Positions 11,327-16,361 of a stretch of 42,055 bases of DNA are shown here, in pieces. Made by a program: the position numbers and the translations under genes. The notes under the pieces are model-generated. The model was not told the DNA's origin and did not search any database. It saw only the letters and a list, made by a program, of their open reading frames with translations. Location of the stretch: contig CANHRE010000002.1 of assembly GCA_947463095.1 (NCBI GenBank), positions 1-42,055 of the forward strand. The letters are read 5' to 3'. Each line of letters starts with the position of its first letter. Position 1 is the stretch's first letter. Source of the DNA: Flavobacteriales bacterium. Its GTDB lineage: Bacteria > Bacteroidota > Bacteroidia > NS11-12g > UBA955.

Positions 11327-11371
11327 TTCAACATTTTCTTATTTTGTTTAACTTTTTCGTTCGTAACCTTG
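11319..11371 (+). promoter_or_regulatory. Candidate promoters of the B12 operon
   Basis: Two boxes lie upstream of the riboswitch. TATTTTTG at 11319-11326 matches TAnnTTTG exactly but its nearest TTG (11290-11292) is too far upstream. TAACCTTG at 11364-11371 has one mismatch and a TTTG at 11343-11346, 17 bases away, close to the usual -33 spacing. Only the first would transcribe a little sequence ahead of the aptamer; either one would include the whole riboswitch. Confidence 0.35.
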
Positions 11372-11377
11372 CAGCGG

Positions 11378-11555
11378 ATTCAGGTGACTGAGGTGGAGCA
11401 ATCTGCCGCAGGCTGAAAAGGGAATCCGGTGAAATTCCGGAACAGTACCCGCTGCTGTAAGTTCCGTGTAGCGCATCCTCTTAAATCCACTGACGTAACG
11501 CAATACGTCGGGAAGGAAGGATGCAGGGAATAAGTCAGAAGACCTGCCTGATTCT
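11378..11555 (+). ncRNA. Cobalamin (B12) riboswitch
   Basis: The conserved aptamer core is clear: GGGAATCCGGTG at 11420-11431, the pairing TTCCGG at 11435-11440, CCCGCTGCTGT at 11448-11458, and the B12 box GTCAGAAGACCTGCC at 11534-11548. TCAGG (11380-11384) can pair with CCTGA (11547-11551) to close the structure. Riboswitches of this class bind adenosyl- or methylcobalamin and usually shut off the downstream gene. The gene 88 bases downstream is a BtuB-like receptor, which fits. There is no strong terminator after the aptamer. A GTGGA/TCCAC hairpin at 11587-11612 lies ahead of the start codon, so control may act on translation; that part is inference. Confidence 0.93.
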
Positions 11556-11642
11556 GAAGTATAACGGCTTTCGGGAACAAAAGCGCGTGGACATAACTCG
11601 TTGTGATTCCACCAATTCCTGTTCGCCTGTCAACGAAGAACT

Positions 11643-13745
11643 ATGAACAGGATGAACCATACCCTTTGCCTGCTGCTGTTGCTGATGAACAGTGTATTGC
11701 TTTCCGGGCAAACCGCACTGAACGACACCGGCAGTATGCTGGATCAGGTTACCGTTTCCTCGGCCAGAACACCGGAGCGGATTCAGGAAGTGCCCCGCAT
11801 GGTAACGGTGCTTACTTGGCGTGATATTGCCGCATCACAGGCTCAGTCTTTAGGTGAGTTTTTGTCCATGCAACTGGGTGCATCTGTGGTTGGGGCCGTG
11901 CAGAATCCGGGTGCCAACCAGTCGTTGTTCTTGCGTGGGGCCGGCAGCAACCAAACCACCATCATGGTGGATGGGATGCGGATTTCCGACCCTTCTACAC
12001 CAAATGGCGCCATCGACCTTTCCGAACTTTCACTAGCCGATATTGAACAAATCGAAATTGTTCAGGGCGGCCACAGCGCCATGTTTGGCACCGGAGCCCT
12101 CGGAGGTTTGGTGAACATCATCACCAGAAAGGGAGCGCAAAAAGCGAGCAGCAACCTCAACATACACGCAGCCAGGTTCGGGCCAGGACATGCTTTTGGC
12201 GGAAGTGCCAATACCCAGCGCCTATATAAATCAGGATTCCTCACAGCGCAGGGTCAACATTATCGCTCCGGCGGGATGAACAGCACGCTGCCTTCGCCAA
12301 CCCCGGGATATCTGGCGTCTGAAGCGGATGGCTTCAGCAAAACAGATTTATCCCTGCGCGGCGGATGGAATGGAAAGAATGCCAACGTCTGGGCAGGCTG
12401 GAGACACAACAACCAACATACCGATATTGATGCCGGCGCGTTCCGCGACGACGAGAATTACCGCCTGCGCATGAAACGCCAAACACTGCATGGCGGTGCC
12501 GAATGGAAACTGAACCAGCACTATAGCCTGAACCTTACCGGAGGATGGAGTAAGTTGCAGCGCAAGTCTGACAATGATTCTTCGCTGATTGGCCCCGGTA
12601 CCTATGATGGTTTCATCGGGCGTGATGTGTTCAGCGGTACCAATTCAAGCGCCGATCTGTTCATGCACGGCAATCATGGGAATGCGCAATGGACCGGAGG
12701 CATCAGCTTTTACGCAGAAGCAGCTTCCGTTAATACCTATTCATACAGCCGCCCCTGGAGCTTTGAAAGTGCTTCCAATTACGATACCGTGGGCCTGAAC
12801 AGCCGCATCCTTGCCGCTTACGGCCAGGCCAGTTTATTCACCAAACACAAAGTATCCCTGGCCGTGAGCGGTCGGATTAGCAGACATAACCTTTTTGGAA
12901 ACGTGTGGAACGCCGCGTTTAATCCCTATTGGAACATCAACAGGCGTGCTATGCTCTACGGCAACCTGAGCACCGGTTTTAACACACCGTCGCTGTATCA
13001 GATGCTGGCCCCGGAACGCTCTTTTGCCGGCCTGCGTCGTGGCAATCCCAACCTGAAACCGGAACATGGCAGCACCGCCGAGGTAGGGTTCAAACACAAA
13101 AGTGCTACATTCAGCCTGCAGGCTTCTCTGTTCCACCAAAGGACGAGCCAGGTTATTCAATATGTATATGCCTGGAGCGACAAACATCCCGATAGTGTAT
13201 CATTTGCAGATTATCTCGGCGATACCTACATCAACAATGGTAAATCCATTCAAAACGGCTTTCAGGTAGAATATAATGCCATCTTGCCGTTGGGTTTCCA
13301 ATTGTCCGGAAATGCCACCATGCTGGCAGGCAAGCAAATCCTAAACCTTGGGGAACCTGCGGGCCGCCTGTATCAGGCCTTTGAAAGCGGTATATTCCTG
13401 AATCAGAAGCATGAACTCAGTAAACTATCCAGAAGAGCTTCAACGGCAACCATCATGCTCGCACACAACTTAGGAAAATCAGGTGTGCTGTCAATAAGGG
13501 CTCGTTCTGTTTCTAAAAAGTATGATGTAAGCTATGACGACATGCTCGGTCCCTTTGGCGCATTAAACTACTTGGACGTTCAATCCTATACGCTGCTGGA
13601 TCTTTTGTTCCGCACCAGTCTTGGGCAGCATTGTACCCTAGGATGTGCTGTGCAGAACCTGACCAATAGAACGTATACCGACATTGCCGGATTCACTACC
13701 AGGCCGCGCAGTTTTTCTCTGAACCTGAGTTTCAAACTGCCCTGA
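11643..13745 (+). CDS. btuB: TonB-dependent cobalamin receptor, BtuB-like
   Basis: A 700-residue outer-membrane receptor. Residues 1-23 are a signal peptide ending SGQ. A TonB-box-like segment (DQVTV, 34-38) is followed by a plug domain of about 110 residues (SLFLRGAGSNQTTIMVDGMR, GGLVNIITRKG) and a 22-strand type barrel ending FSLNLSFKLP. TonB receptors of this kind import corrinoids across the outer membrane using the proton motive force. Cobalamin is assigned because the gene sits under a B12 riboswitch and ahead of a binding protein and FecCD-type permease; sequence alone would not exclude another chelate. The start could be the ATG at 11652. Its stop TGA overlaps the apparent start of the next gene. 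Confidence 0.9.
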   Translation: MNRMNHTLCLLLLLMNSVLLSGQTALNDTGSMLDQVTVSSARTPERIQEVPRMVTVLTWRDIAASQAQSLGEFLSMQLGASVVGAVQNPGANQSLFLRGAGSNQTTIMVDGMRISDPSTPNGAIDLSELSLADIEQIEIVQGGHSAMFGTGALGGLVNIITRKGAQKASSNLNIHAARFGPGHAFGGSANTQRLYKSGFLTAQGQHYRSGGMNSTLPSPTPGYLASEADGFSKTDLSLRGGWNGKNANVWAGWRHNNQHTDIDAGAFRDDENYRLRMKRQTLHGGAEWKLNQHYSLNLTGGWSKLQRKSDNDSSLIGPGTYDGFIGRDVFSGTNSSADLFMHGNHGNAQWTGGISFYAEAASVNTYSYSRPWSFESASNYDTVGLNSRILAAYGQASLFTKHKVSLAVSGRISRHNLFGNVWNAAFNPYWNINRRAMLYGNLSTGFNTPSLYQMLAPERSFAGLRRGNPNLKPEHGSTAEVGFKHKSATFSLQASLFHQRTSQVIQYVYAWSDKHPDSVSFADYLGDTYINNGKSIQNGFQVEYNAILPLGFQLSGNATMLAGKQILNLGEPAGRLYQAFESGIFLNQKHELSKLSRRASTATIMLAHNLGKSGVLSIRARSVSKKYDVSYDDMLGPFGALNYLDVQSYTLLDLLFRTSLGQHCTLGCAVQNLTNRTYTDIAGFTTRPRSFSLNLSFKLP

Positions 13746-14806
13746 ACCGCTTAGCTGCCATATGGTTCCTGTTGATCCTGTCGGCATGTTCACCTGCCGG
13801 AAGTGGTAAAGCGAAGCCGGGAACAGCACCGCGTTACGCAGGGTTTTTTAGTACGGGTGGAGATTCGCTCCTTTGGGTATCTTCTGTTCATGACAAGGAT
13901 CAGGTGGTGGCCACCCTACAACAGGGCATCCTGAACCGGCAATCTCGGATTGTTTGCCTTTCATCGGTCATAGTGGCCTTCCTTGAAGAACTTGGCCTGG
14001 CAAATACCATCGTTGCCGTAGACCAAACGGCTTTCATCAGCAGCCCCGCGCTGCTCAGGCGGATTCAGGAAGGATTGGTTGCTTCCGTGAAGCCCGGCGC
14101 ATCGCTTGATGTAGAACGCGTCCTCAGTATGCAACCAGATGCGGTTTTTTATTACGAGGGTGCAGGTGGTGAAGATCCGTCATTTTCCCTGCTCAAAAAG
14201 AATGGGATAAAGTTGATTCCAGTGAACAATTACAAAGAACAGCATCCCTTGGGCAGGGCTGAGTGGATTCGCTTTGTTGGAAGAATATTCGGCATAGCTT
14301 CACAAGCTGATTCCTTATTTGATGCGGTTGCCCGTTCATATGAAGATCAAAAAAACATGGCGGATCAGCAGCCCCTCAGGCCAACGGTATTTTGCAATGC
14401 CCCTTTTAGCGGAGTATGGGATCAACCTCAGGGTGGAAACTATATGGCTATGCTGATCAAAGATGCAGGGGGCGTTTACCTGTGGGCGGAAACATCAGGA
14501 AGCGGAACAATAAGTCTGCAGCCGGAGGCAGTATTGCTGAAAGCCCAAAACGCCGATATCTGGATCAACTGCAACGATTACACAGAGCGGCGGCAATTGC
14601 TGTCGGAAGATCCGCGGTTGTCCAGATTTAAAGCCTTCAGCCAGGGTCGCGTTTTTGCTGCCAATGCCGTGAAAAGGGAAGGGGGCGCCAATCCGTTCTG
14701 GGAGCTCGGCGTGGTAAGGCCAGATTTGGTACTGCACGACCTCAGGCAGATTTTTTCTGCCGCCGGCGACACCCTCAGCATGTATTTTTACCGCAAACTT
14801 CGTTGA
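13742..14806 (+). CDS. btuF: Cobalamin-binding lipoprotein of an ABC importer, BtuF-like; apparent CTG start
   Basis: A periplasmic substrate-binding protein of the helical-backbone (BtuF/FhuD) family, about 354 residues, which would deliver corrinoid to the permease. Conserved blocks include RIVCLSSVIVAFLEELGLA and LSMQPDAVFYYEG. The start is the notable point. The first standard start in frame is TTG at 13772, in the middle of the hydrophobic stretch. Reading back gives NRLAAIWFLLILSAC, a complete lipoprotein signal with positive residue, core and LSAC lipobox (Cys at codon 16), directly preceded by CTG at 13742. That CTG overlaps the btuB stop as CTGA, as ATGA would. No ATG, GTG or TTG lies between the upstream in-frame stop at 13667-13669 and 13772. 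If TTG were used, the lipobox would remain but the signal would be too short. Confidence 0.85.
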   Translation: MNRLAAIWFLLILSACSPAGSGKAKPGTAPRYAGFFSTGGDSLLWVSSVHDKDQVVATLQQGILNRQSRIVCLSSVIVAFLEELGLANTIVAVDQTAFISSPALLRRIQEGLVASVKPGASLDVERVLSMQPDAVFYYEGAGGEDPSFSLLKKNGIKLIPVNNYKEQHPLGRAEWIRFVGRIFGIASQADSLFDAVARSYEDQKNMADQQPLRPTVFCNAPFSGVWDQPQGGNYMAMLIKDAGGVYLWAETSGSGTISLQPEAVLLKAQNADIWINCNDYTERRQLLSEDPRLSRFKAFSQGRVFAANAVKREGGANPFWELGVVRPDLVLHDLRQIFSAAGDTLSMYFYRKLR

Positions 14807-15783
14807 AACGCAAGCCCATCATTGCCCTTGCCTGGCTTTGTCTTTGCCTGGTTTTTGGTGCTGCCCTGATGCAGGGCAGTGGGGGCTTGTTGTGGCAAAT
14901 GGAGCCGGCACTGGCAAAACTGTTGCTCCTTGAATATCGTTTGCCCGCAGCGGTCATGGCTGTTCTGGCAGGTGCTTCGCTTGCATTGAGCGGATTGTTC
15001 ATGCAGAATGTGTTTCGCAACCCGCTGGCAGGCCCTTTTGTGCTGGGAATCAGTTCCGGCGCAAGTCTGGGAATTGCATTGGTTGTGCTGGCCGGAGCTG
15101 GTTTGCCTTTTGCTTTCAGTGGGGCGCCGATAAAGGCCTTGGCAGCCATCGGCGGTGCGCTCCTGATGTTAATGCTGAATGTTGTGGTGTATGGTCGACT
15201 GAAAAGCACAGTTGCCCTGCTCATTTTTGGAATCCTTGCCGGACACTTCGTTTCGGCCATCGTTGAATCACTTCAGTATATGGCCTCAGGCGCCGATATA
15301 AGGAATTTCTTACTCTGGGGTATGGGCAATCTACAGGTTGCCGGTTGGGTACCTCATTTCATGATAGGTTTGGTACTGCTTGCCTCCTGGTACACGGGCC
15401 AACGAGTTCATGGGGCCATGGATGTTTATCAGCTTGGCGACGATTACGCCCGCAGTCTGGGCTTAAATTTAAATGGCTACAGGAAATCGCTGATGTGGCT
15501 CACAGCATTGATGGCAGGCTGCGTTACTGCCTGGTGCGGTCCTTTGTCGTTTGTTGGCTTGGTGGTACCTCACCTGGCACGAATGCTGCTAGGAACGGCC
15601 CTGCATCGATACCTGATTACAGGTACAGCCTTGCTGGGGGCATTGTTTATGCTCACAGCACACCTGATTAGCCTGTTACCTCTTTCCAATACTGAATTAC
15701 CTGTCAATGTGATTTGTTCCATATTAGGTGCACCTTTGGTGATGCTGTTGCTGCTCCGTAATAAAAATCTGTTGCTGGAGTGA
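14803..15783 (+). CDS. btuC: FecCD-family permease of the B12 importer, BtuC-like
   Basis: A 326-residue inner-membrane permease with about ten hydrophobic helices and the family block GLFMQNVFRNPLAGPFVLG; its length equals that of E. coli BtuC. It would form the translocation pore as a dimer with a BtuD ATPase. It starts at TTG (14803), overlapping the btuF stop in TTGA; the residues after it (KRKPIIALAWLCLCLVFG) form a normal first helix, and no ATG is available nearby. No ATPase gene follows: 191 bases later the ribosomal operon begins. The importer must borrow an ATPase encoded elsewhere. Confidence 0.88.
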   Translation: MKRKPIIALAWLCLCLVFGAALMQGSGGLLWQMEPALAKLLLLEYRLPAAVMAVLAGASLALSGLFMQNVFRNPLAGPFVLGISSGASLGIALVVLAGAGLPFAFSGAPIKALAAIGGALLMLMLNVVVYGRLKSTVALLIFGILAGHFVSAIVESLQYMASGADIRNFLLWGMGNLQVAGWVPHFMIGLVLLASWYTGQRVHGAMDVYQLGDDYARSLGLNLNGYRKSLMWLTALMAGCVTAWCGPLSFVGLVVPHLARMLLGTALHRYLITGTALLGALFMLTAHLISLLPLSNTELPVNVICSILGAPLVMLLLLRNKNLLLE

Positions 15784-15875
15784 ATTTTACCCGATGCCGG
15801 AAACCGAGGCCTCAAAGCGCCTTTTACCGCCATGGACATGTAATGACGGTTTAAAATGAGATGATCATATTCGCC

Positions 15876-15917
15876 TTACGCAAATCCTCCAAAAAAGTCT
15901 GAAGGAGTGTTGCGTAA
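15876..15917 (+). repeat. Inverted repeat upstream of rpsL, overlapping the -33 box
   Basis: TTACGCAA (15876-15883) and CTCC (15887-15890) are mirrored by GGAG (15904-15907) and TTGCGTAA (15910-15917), giving twelve paired bases with a small internal bulge and a 13-base loop. The right arm contains the TTG of the -33 element. It lies upstream of the predicted transcription start, so it would act as a DNA operator or, in read-through RNA from btuC, as a hairpin. No T-run follows it, which argues against a classical terminator. Confidence 0.6.
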
Positions 15918-15940
15918 CCCGAATAATAATCGTAATTTTG
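15910..15940 (+). promoter_or_regulatory. Main promoter of the ribosomal superoperon
   Basis: TTG at 15910-15912 (-33) and TAATTTTG at 15933-15940 (-7) are separated by 20 bases, the spacing expected for the Bacteroidota housekeeping sigma factor. Transcription would begin near 15945, leaving a leader of about 30 bases before rpsL. Confidence 0.7.
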
Positions 15941-15974
15941 CCGTCCTTTTTAGGAAGAATACGCAAATAACAAA

Positions 15975-16361
15975 ATGCCAACCATACAACAATTGGTAAG
16001 AAAAGGCCGGGAAACGCTGGTTAACAAAAGCAAGTCTCCAGCCCTGGATGCATGCCCTCAGCGGAGGGGTGTTTGTACCCGTGTGTACACTACCACGCCG
16101 AAGAAACCGAACTCAGCGATGAGAAAGGTTGCCCGTGTGCGCTTGAGCAACGGTAAAGAAGTGAACGCCTATATCCCCGGAGAAGGCCACAACCTGCAGG
16201 AACACTCGATAGTTCTGGTTAGGGGCGGCAGGGTGAAAGATTTGCCCGGTGTTCGTTACCACATTGTGCGCGGTGCACTTGATACCGCCGGTGTAGAAGG
16301 TCGTAATCAGCGCCGCTCCAAGTATGGAACTAAGCGTCCTAAAGCCAAGGATAAAAAGTAA
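15975..16361 (+). CDS. rpsL: 30S ribosomal protein S12
   Basis: 128 residues, first gene of the superoperon. S12 sits at the decoding centre and controls accuracy. The loop [10 protein letters not shown] carries Lys43 and the second loop [13 protein letters not shown] carries Lys88 and Pro91, in E. coli numbering and all wild type, so nothing here predicts streptomycin resistance. The leader has no Shine-Dalgarno sequence; the bases before the ATG are A-rich. rpsG follows after 11 bases. Confidence 0.98.

Follow-up and report, generated by a model that had tools for sequence, protein, structure and literature searches.

Organisation of the btu operon

The window, a stretch of 42,055 nucleotides from contig CANHRE010000002.1 of a Flavobacteriales bacterium (assembly GCA_947463095.1; genome G000 below), carries a small B12-type uptake operon composed of a cobalamin riboswitch, a TonB receptor, a binding protein, and a FecCD permease (Table 1). 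The gene names of the original prediction stood at the family level (PF01497, TonB receptor, and FecCD), but the Btu-specific NCBIfam models were not reached: the best NCBIfam match of the receptor was TIGR01779, under its cut-off, the BtuC models also remained below their cut-offs, and BtuF had no NCBIfam match. Hence, the substrate was named from the riboswitch and the best family matches. A search by sequence found no relative of BtuF with a solved structure. The next gene after btuC was, by eye, a ribosomal protein S12-like ORF at 15975, and the ORF list contained no btuD-like ATPase gene directly 3′ of btuC (window 15783–15975).

Table 1 Features of the btu operon in the window.
Feature	Position	Strand	Evidence
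Cobalamin riboswitch aptamer (RF00174), 5′ of the operon	11365..11565	+	Rfam, 107.9 bits, E 3.1e-26
btuB-like TonB-dependent receptor gene, C-terminus ...SFKLP, stop TGA 13743-13745	11643..13745	+	PF00593 and PF07715
CTGA stop/start overlap, proposed btuF CTG start over btuB TGA stop	13742..13745	+	Sequence; same CTGA in G001
Predicted lipoprotein signal (L/M)NRLAAIWFLLILSAC, lipobox LSAC, Cys 13787-13789	13742..13789	+	Translation; equivalent signal in G001
btuF-like substrate-binding lipoprotein gene, proposed CTG start, 354 codons	13742..14806	+	PF01497, E 1.9e-21
TTG, first canonical start, rejected (signal left too short; absent in G001)	13772..13774	+	
btuC-like permease gene, TTG start in TTGA overlap with btuF stop	14803..15783	+	PF01032, E 2.5e-64

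At the btuB–btuF junction, CTG 13742–13744 overlaps the btuB stop in the −4 geometry, and the two frames differ by −1. Following a TAG, the btuF frame is open from 13670 onward; its translation from 13742 was LNRLAAIWFLLILSAC-SPAG, in which the Cys is encoded by TGT. By reading, this N-terminus consists of a charged n-region, a hydrophobic core, and a lipobox with Cys (NR-LAAIWFLLI-LSAC); a full lipoprotein signal therefore lies upstream of TTG 13772, as had been predicted. This TTG, ten codons after the CTG, is the sole ATG, GTG, or TTG (canonical starts) in the btuF frame before the Cys, and the prediction that only a CTG forming a CTGA precedes it proved exact in the sequence. The btuF–btuC junction is also an NTGA overlap (TTGA, 14803–14806), so that two non-ATG junctions of this kind follow each other in the operon.

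Common gene callers generally admit only ATG, GTG, and TTG, and NCBI table 11 includes CTG as a possible start. In line with the expectation that standard callers would miss the btuF start, finders limited to the three canonical codons would lose the signal peptide; the mechanical ORF list began btuF at TTG 13772. A simple caller relying on the coding score alone put the start 77 codons in. With a coding score of only 4.1 (7th of 336 genes), the signal stretch did not stand out, and the RNA folding energy at the junction (−8.0 kcal/mol) was ordinary compared with that of 69 ATGA junctions (mean −9.9).

Start of btuF within the genus

The btuF gene was present in all three genomes of the genus, namely G000 and those of the second (G001) and third (G002) species. 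The latter two are fragmented drafts, and btuF of G001 is split across two contigs. Between G001 and the window, btuB was 75% identical and BtuF 56–68% identical. The G001 junction read ...AGT TTT AAA CTA CCC TGA in the btuB frame and TAA ACT ACC CTG AAG TAT TTT CTG CCA ATA TGG ATC CTG CTG CTG AAC GCC TGC in the btuF frame, which opens two codons 5′ of the CTG. Comparison of the homologous junctions, which the original prediction had proposed as a check, thus showed CTGA kept in G001 with no canonical start before the lipobox Cys; the first one was an ATG 24 codons after the CTG, beyond the Cys. The G001 signal is one codon (3 bases) shorter than that of the window, so the reading frame was kept, and recurrence of CTGA, the open frame, and the lipobox signal despite this in-frame change is more than chance. 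In G002, the btuF start is an ATG that lies one codon past a TAA, indicating that the CTG start is not universal in the genus.

A start at TTG 13772, with either a short MILSAC peptide sufficing or BtuF not being lipidated, would use the first canonical codon of the frame, and TTG starts 37 of the 363 called genes of G000. It leaves, however, five residues before the Cys without a charged n-region, and the codon is not conserved in G001, which has no start codon at that position. Because G001 combines CTGA with the lack of a canonical start before the Cys, the TTG start is very unlikely.

The signal stretch also contains an in-frame ATA at 13760 and an out-of-frame ATG at 13762–13764. Initiation at the ATA, at a downstream CTG, or at this ATG followed by a frameshift could draw on the conservation of ATA-TGG, and thereby of the ATG, in G001, but the match is explained by conservation of the Ile-Trp pair in the protein. 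All of these codons lie in or beside the hydrophobic core, so that the charged residues would be lost, whereas the K/R residues before the core directly follow CTG 13742. Neither the ATA nor the ATG is a plausible start, and the chance that any of these codons serves is as slight as that of the TTG. The out-of-frame ATG within the motif ATATGG was conserved in G001 probably only through the same Ile-Trp conservation.

Even less probable is that btuF has no separate start and is joined to BtuB by stop read-through and a −1 frameshift. Such a shift would connect the two frames, and stop suppression with frameshift was reported beside reinitiation at the mycobacterial uORF-ppe2 overlap (PMC11260477). 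By inspection, however, CTG CCC TGA has no slippery heptamer, fusion of a barrel to a signal peptide would be hard to justify functionally, and the in-frame TAA of G001 means that the frames could be joined by no shift other than one within the overlap. A sequencing or assembly error with a true A at 13742 would restore ATGA, the commonest overlap of the genome, yet the same C in the independently assembled G001 and the recurrence of CTGA at other junctions, also in G002 and G064, make it hardly conceivable. As both the base error and the TTG start fail in G001, as far as sequence can tell, the non-AUG start suggested for btuF was supported.

We surveyed btuF starts at 43 loci (53 minus 10 duplicate or C-terminal loci). 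An ATG well 5′ of the lipobox was found in 21, only GTG or TTG in 13, and no lipobox matching the pattern used in 5. The remaining four had no start in range: the window, G001, one locus whose ATG narrowly missed the range, and one truncated at the end of its contig. Some btuF loci of genus g7 showed GTGA, TTGA, or ATGA overlaps with another upstream gene.

CTGA overlaps at other genes of the lineage

The overlap codon of btuC was TTGA in G000 and G001 and CTGA in G002, so TTG and CTG alternate at one start site. In G002, the sole canonical codon within the first 40 was a TTG 11 codons on, which by eye falls inside the first membrane helix. This site gives the clearest indication that CTG serves as a start in NTGA overlaps of the lineage, and CTG is probably one of several interchangeable NTG codons tolerated there.

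An Omp85-like gene (C6:2449) carried CTGA in G000, G002, and G064, the last belonging to another family of the order, where the CTGA follows the same CBS-domain gene. This gene had no Pfam match, and its name was therefore guessed from its appearance and from its relatives within the order. In G002, no canonical start occurred within its first 40 codons; in G000, the gene opens CTG-AAG-CGG-AAG, and an ATG 10 codons on would lack a charged n-region. Among 29 other loci examined (excluding the one in G000), the CBS-domain gene lay upstream in 13; two of these (G002 and G064) had CTGA, and the other 11 had TAA or TAG stops with mostly GTG or TTG candidates. When it follows a CBS-domain gene, the Omp85-like gene seems to start with GTG or TTG instead of ATG in most of the examined genomes of the order (loci L164, L170, L171, L172, L177, L178, L179, L183, and L184), as though a weak start were conserved.

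A membrane-protein gene (C14:17297, contig C14; weak ALG3 match below cut-off) had CTGA in G000 and G001, with the first canonical start at codon 23 in G001 and a TTG at codon 12 in G000. By reading, btuF, C6:2449, and C14:17297 are the three CTGA genes of G000 in which none of the canonical starts yields a sound N-terminus, and each was kept as CTGA in another genome. For btuF of G000 and G001, btuC of G002, and the Omp85-like gene of G002, no canonical start gives the conserved N-terminus.

Two more genes were observed with CTGA: a porin-like gene (C10:36147, L063 and L106 joined) in all three species, and a BamA-like gene (C10:37728) in G000 and G001 and not in G002. Both are ambiguous because of a TTG 3–6 codons on. 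For a minus-strand gene on C4, the G001 locus included no clear junction, and G002 showed no such overlap with a long upstream gene. CTGA sites such as L067:3962, L062:12704, C4:18988, and C11:37635 were set aside, as a nearby ATG gave a better N-terminus.

Frequency of CTG starts

Genes were called with a simple purpose-made caller on 442 kb and then on 1.16 Mb of the genome (44%). The larger sample yielded 962 genes and 675 same-strand adjacent pairs, 313 of them with a TGA stop. NTGA overlaps that lay close to the downstream gene and shared its phase numbered 82 with A, 38 with C, 11 with T, and 4 with G among the 675 pairs. btuF is missing from the 38 (39 with it), since the caller placed its start 77 codons in and the nearness filter excluded it. 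When a third is expected by chance, 38 of 134 C-TGA pairs were in phase as against 82 of 105 A-TGA pairs; in these pairs, ATGA was in strong excess and CTGA showed no excess over chance, which argues that a CTG start is not a general habit. Most CTGA cases had a good ATG a few codons downstream, and the called −4 overlaps started with ATG in 69, TTG in 6, and GTG in 4 cases (n = 79).

As a control, 172 pairs from a 332 kb sample of G009, which belongs to another genus, contained no CTG-only case. In G002, 212 pairs were examined in a 400 kb sample, outside which its Omp85-like and btuC cases fall, and no CTGA case lacked a nearby ATG, GTG, or TTG. On these counts, CTG starts remain rare.

Discussion

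Judging from the junctions compared, btuF almost certainly begins at the CTG that overlaps the btuB stop. In the mechanism we propose, the ribosome would end btuB at UGA 13743–13745 and then step back one base, which would bring CUG into the P site opposite an ordinary initiator fMet-tRNA. Translation would restart in the −1 frame by termination-reinitiation, giving fMet-NRLAAIWFLLILSAC..., and the BtuF precursor would be exported and lipidated at the Cys, with a yield presumably lower than that of the receptor. The joint account of a CTG 13742 start by reinitiation, fMet at CUG, export, and lipidation is, in our estimation, very probable. The four-base overlap points to the reinitiation route; together with the scarcity of Shine-Dalgarno motifs in Bacteroidetes, even in overlaps (10% of overlaps; PMC6728339), it makes termination-reinitiation the natural one.

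There are precedents both for native CTG starts and for stop/start reinitiation. The −4 geometry and operon logic at btuB–btuF match those of the ATGA, GTGA, and TTGA reinitiation overlaps (Huber et al. 2019, PMC6728339), but btuF starts with CTG, and neither CUG nor CTG occurs in the main text of that study. The rep gene of an E. coli FIB replicon has, like btuF, a native CTG start, in that case proven and misannotated at a canonical codon 14 codons downstream; it is plasmid-borne with a good ribosome-binding site, whereas the btuF CTG lies in a stop/start overlap of a Bacteroidota operon (PMC11983097). The GTC start of Streptomyces sigR is likewise a rare, mis-annotated native start, and it determines how much of one operon member is made; it differs from btuF in its codon, its strong RBS, its experimental proof, and its partly coupled partner lying downstream (PMC5472188). 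Annotated genes starting with CTG numbered 20 of nearly 85,000, as cited in PMC11983097, and ancestral AUG starts switched to CUG in 2 of 61,358 cases in one reconstruction (PMC5622118). In the open-access literature searched, we found no description of CTGA overlaps as starts or of CTG starts in Bacteroidetes, and no precedent for recurrence of conserved CTGA starts within one lineage.

CUG very seldom serves as a native start codon in bacteria, and annotation that disallows CTG would hide cases, while in this lineage CTG starts appear to recur at several orthologous stop/start overlaps. As the terminating ribosome is already present and there is no reliance on Shine-Dalgarno pairing, reinitiation may relax the choice of start codon. 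For annotation, CTGA overlaps should be inspected where a signal peptide sits 5′ of the called start.

A broader proposal, that CTG is a regular fourth start codon at stop/start overlaps in the lineage and is kept as a brake on the downstream protein, seems doubtful to us. It would have the downstream coupled protein made in smaller amounts than the upstream, often outer-membrane, protein, and two species do keep CTGA at btuB–btuF. Damping of BtuF is plausible because the preceding btuB codon is CCC, and a silent change to CCA would give ATGA. As a sign of selection for CTG, however, retention of C at the CTGA site was not significant in this comparison, since C is retained at about half of the fourfold sites anyway (53% in G001 and 51% in G002).

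The translation machinery of G000 was also inspected. In the draft genome, 32 tRNAs were found, and all Met tRNAs (30 loci scanned) had a CAT anticodon. One of them (L132) had a GGG/CCC anticodon stem, and by the rule for initiator-type stems we take it to be the initiator tRNA. An altered initiator tRNA was rejected, as the CAT anticodon is normal and the Leu-CAG tRNA looks ordinary. IF3 was present once.
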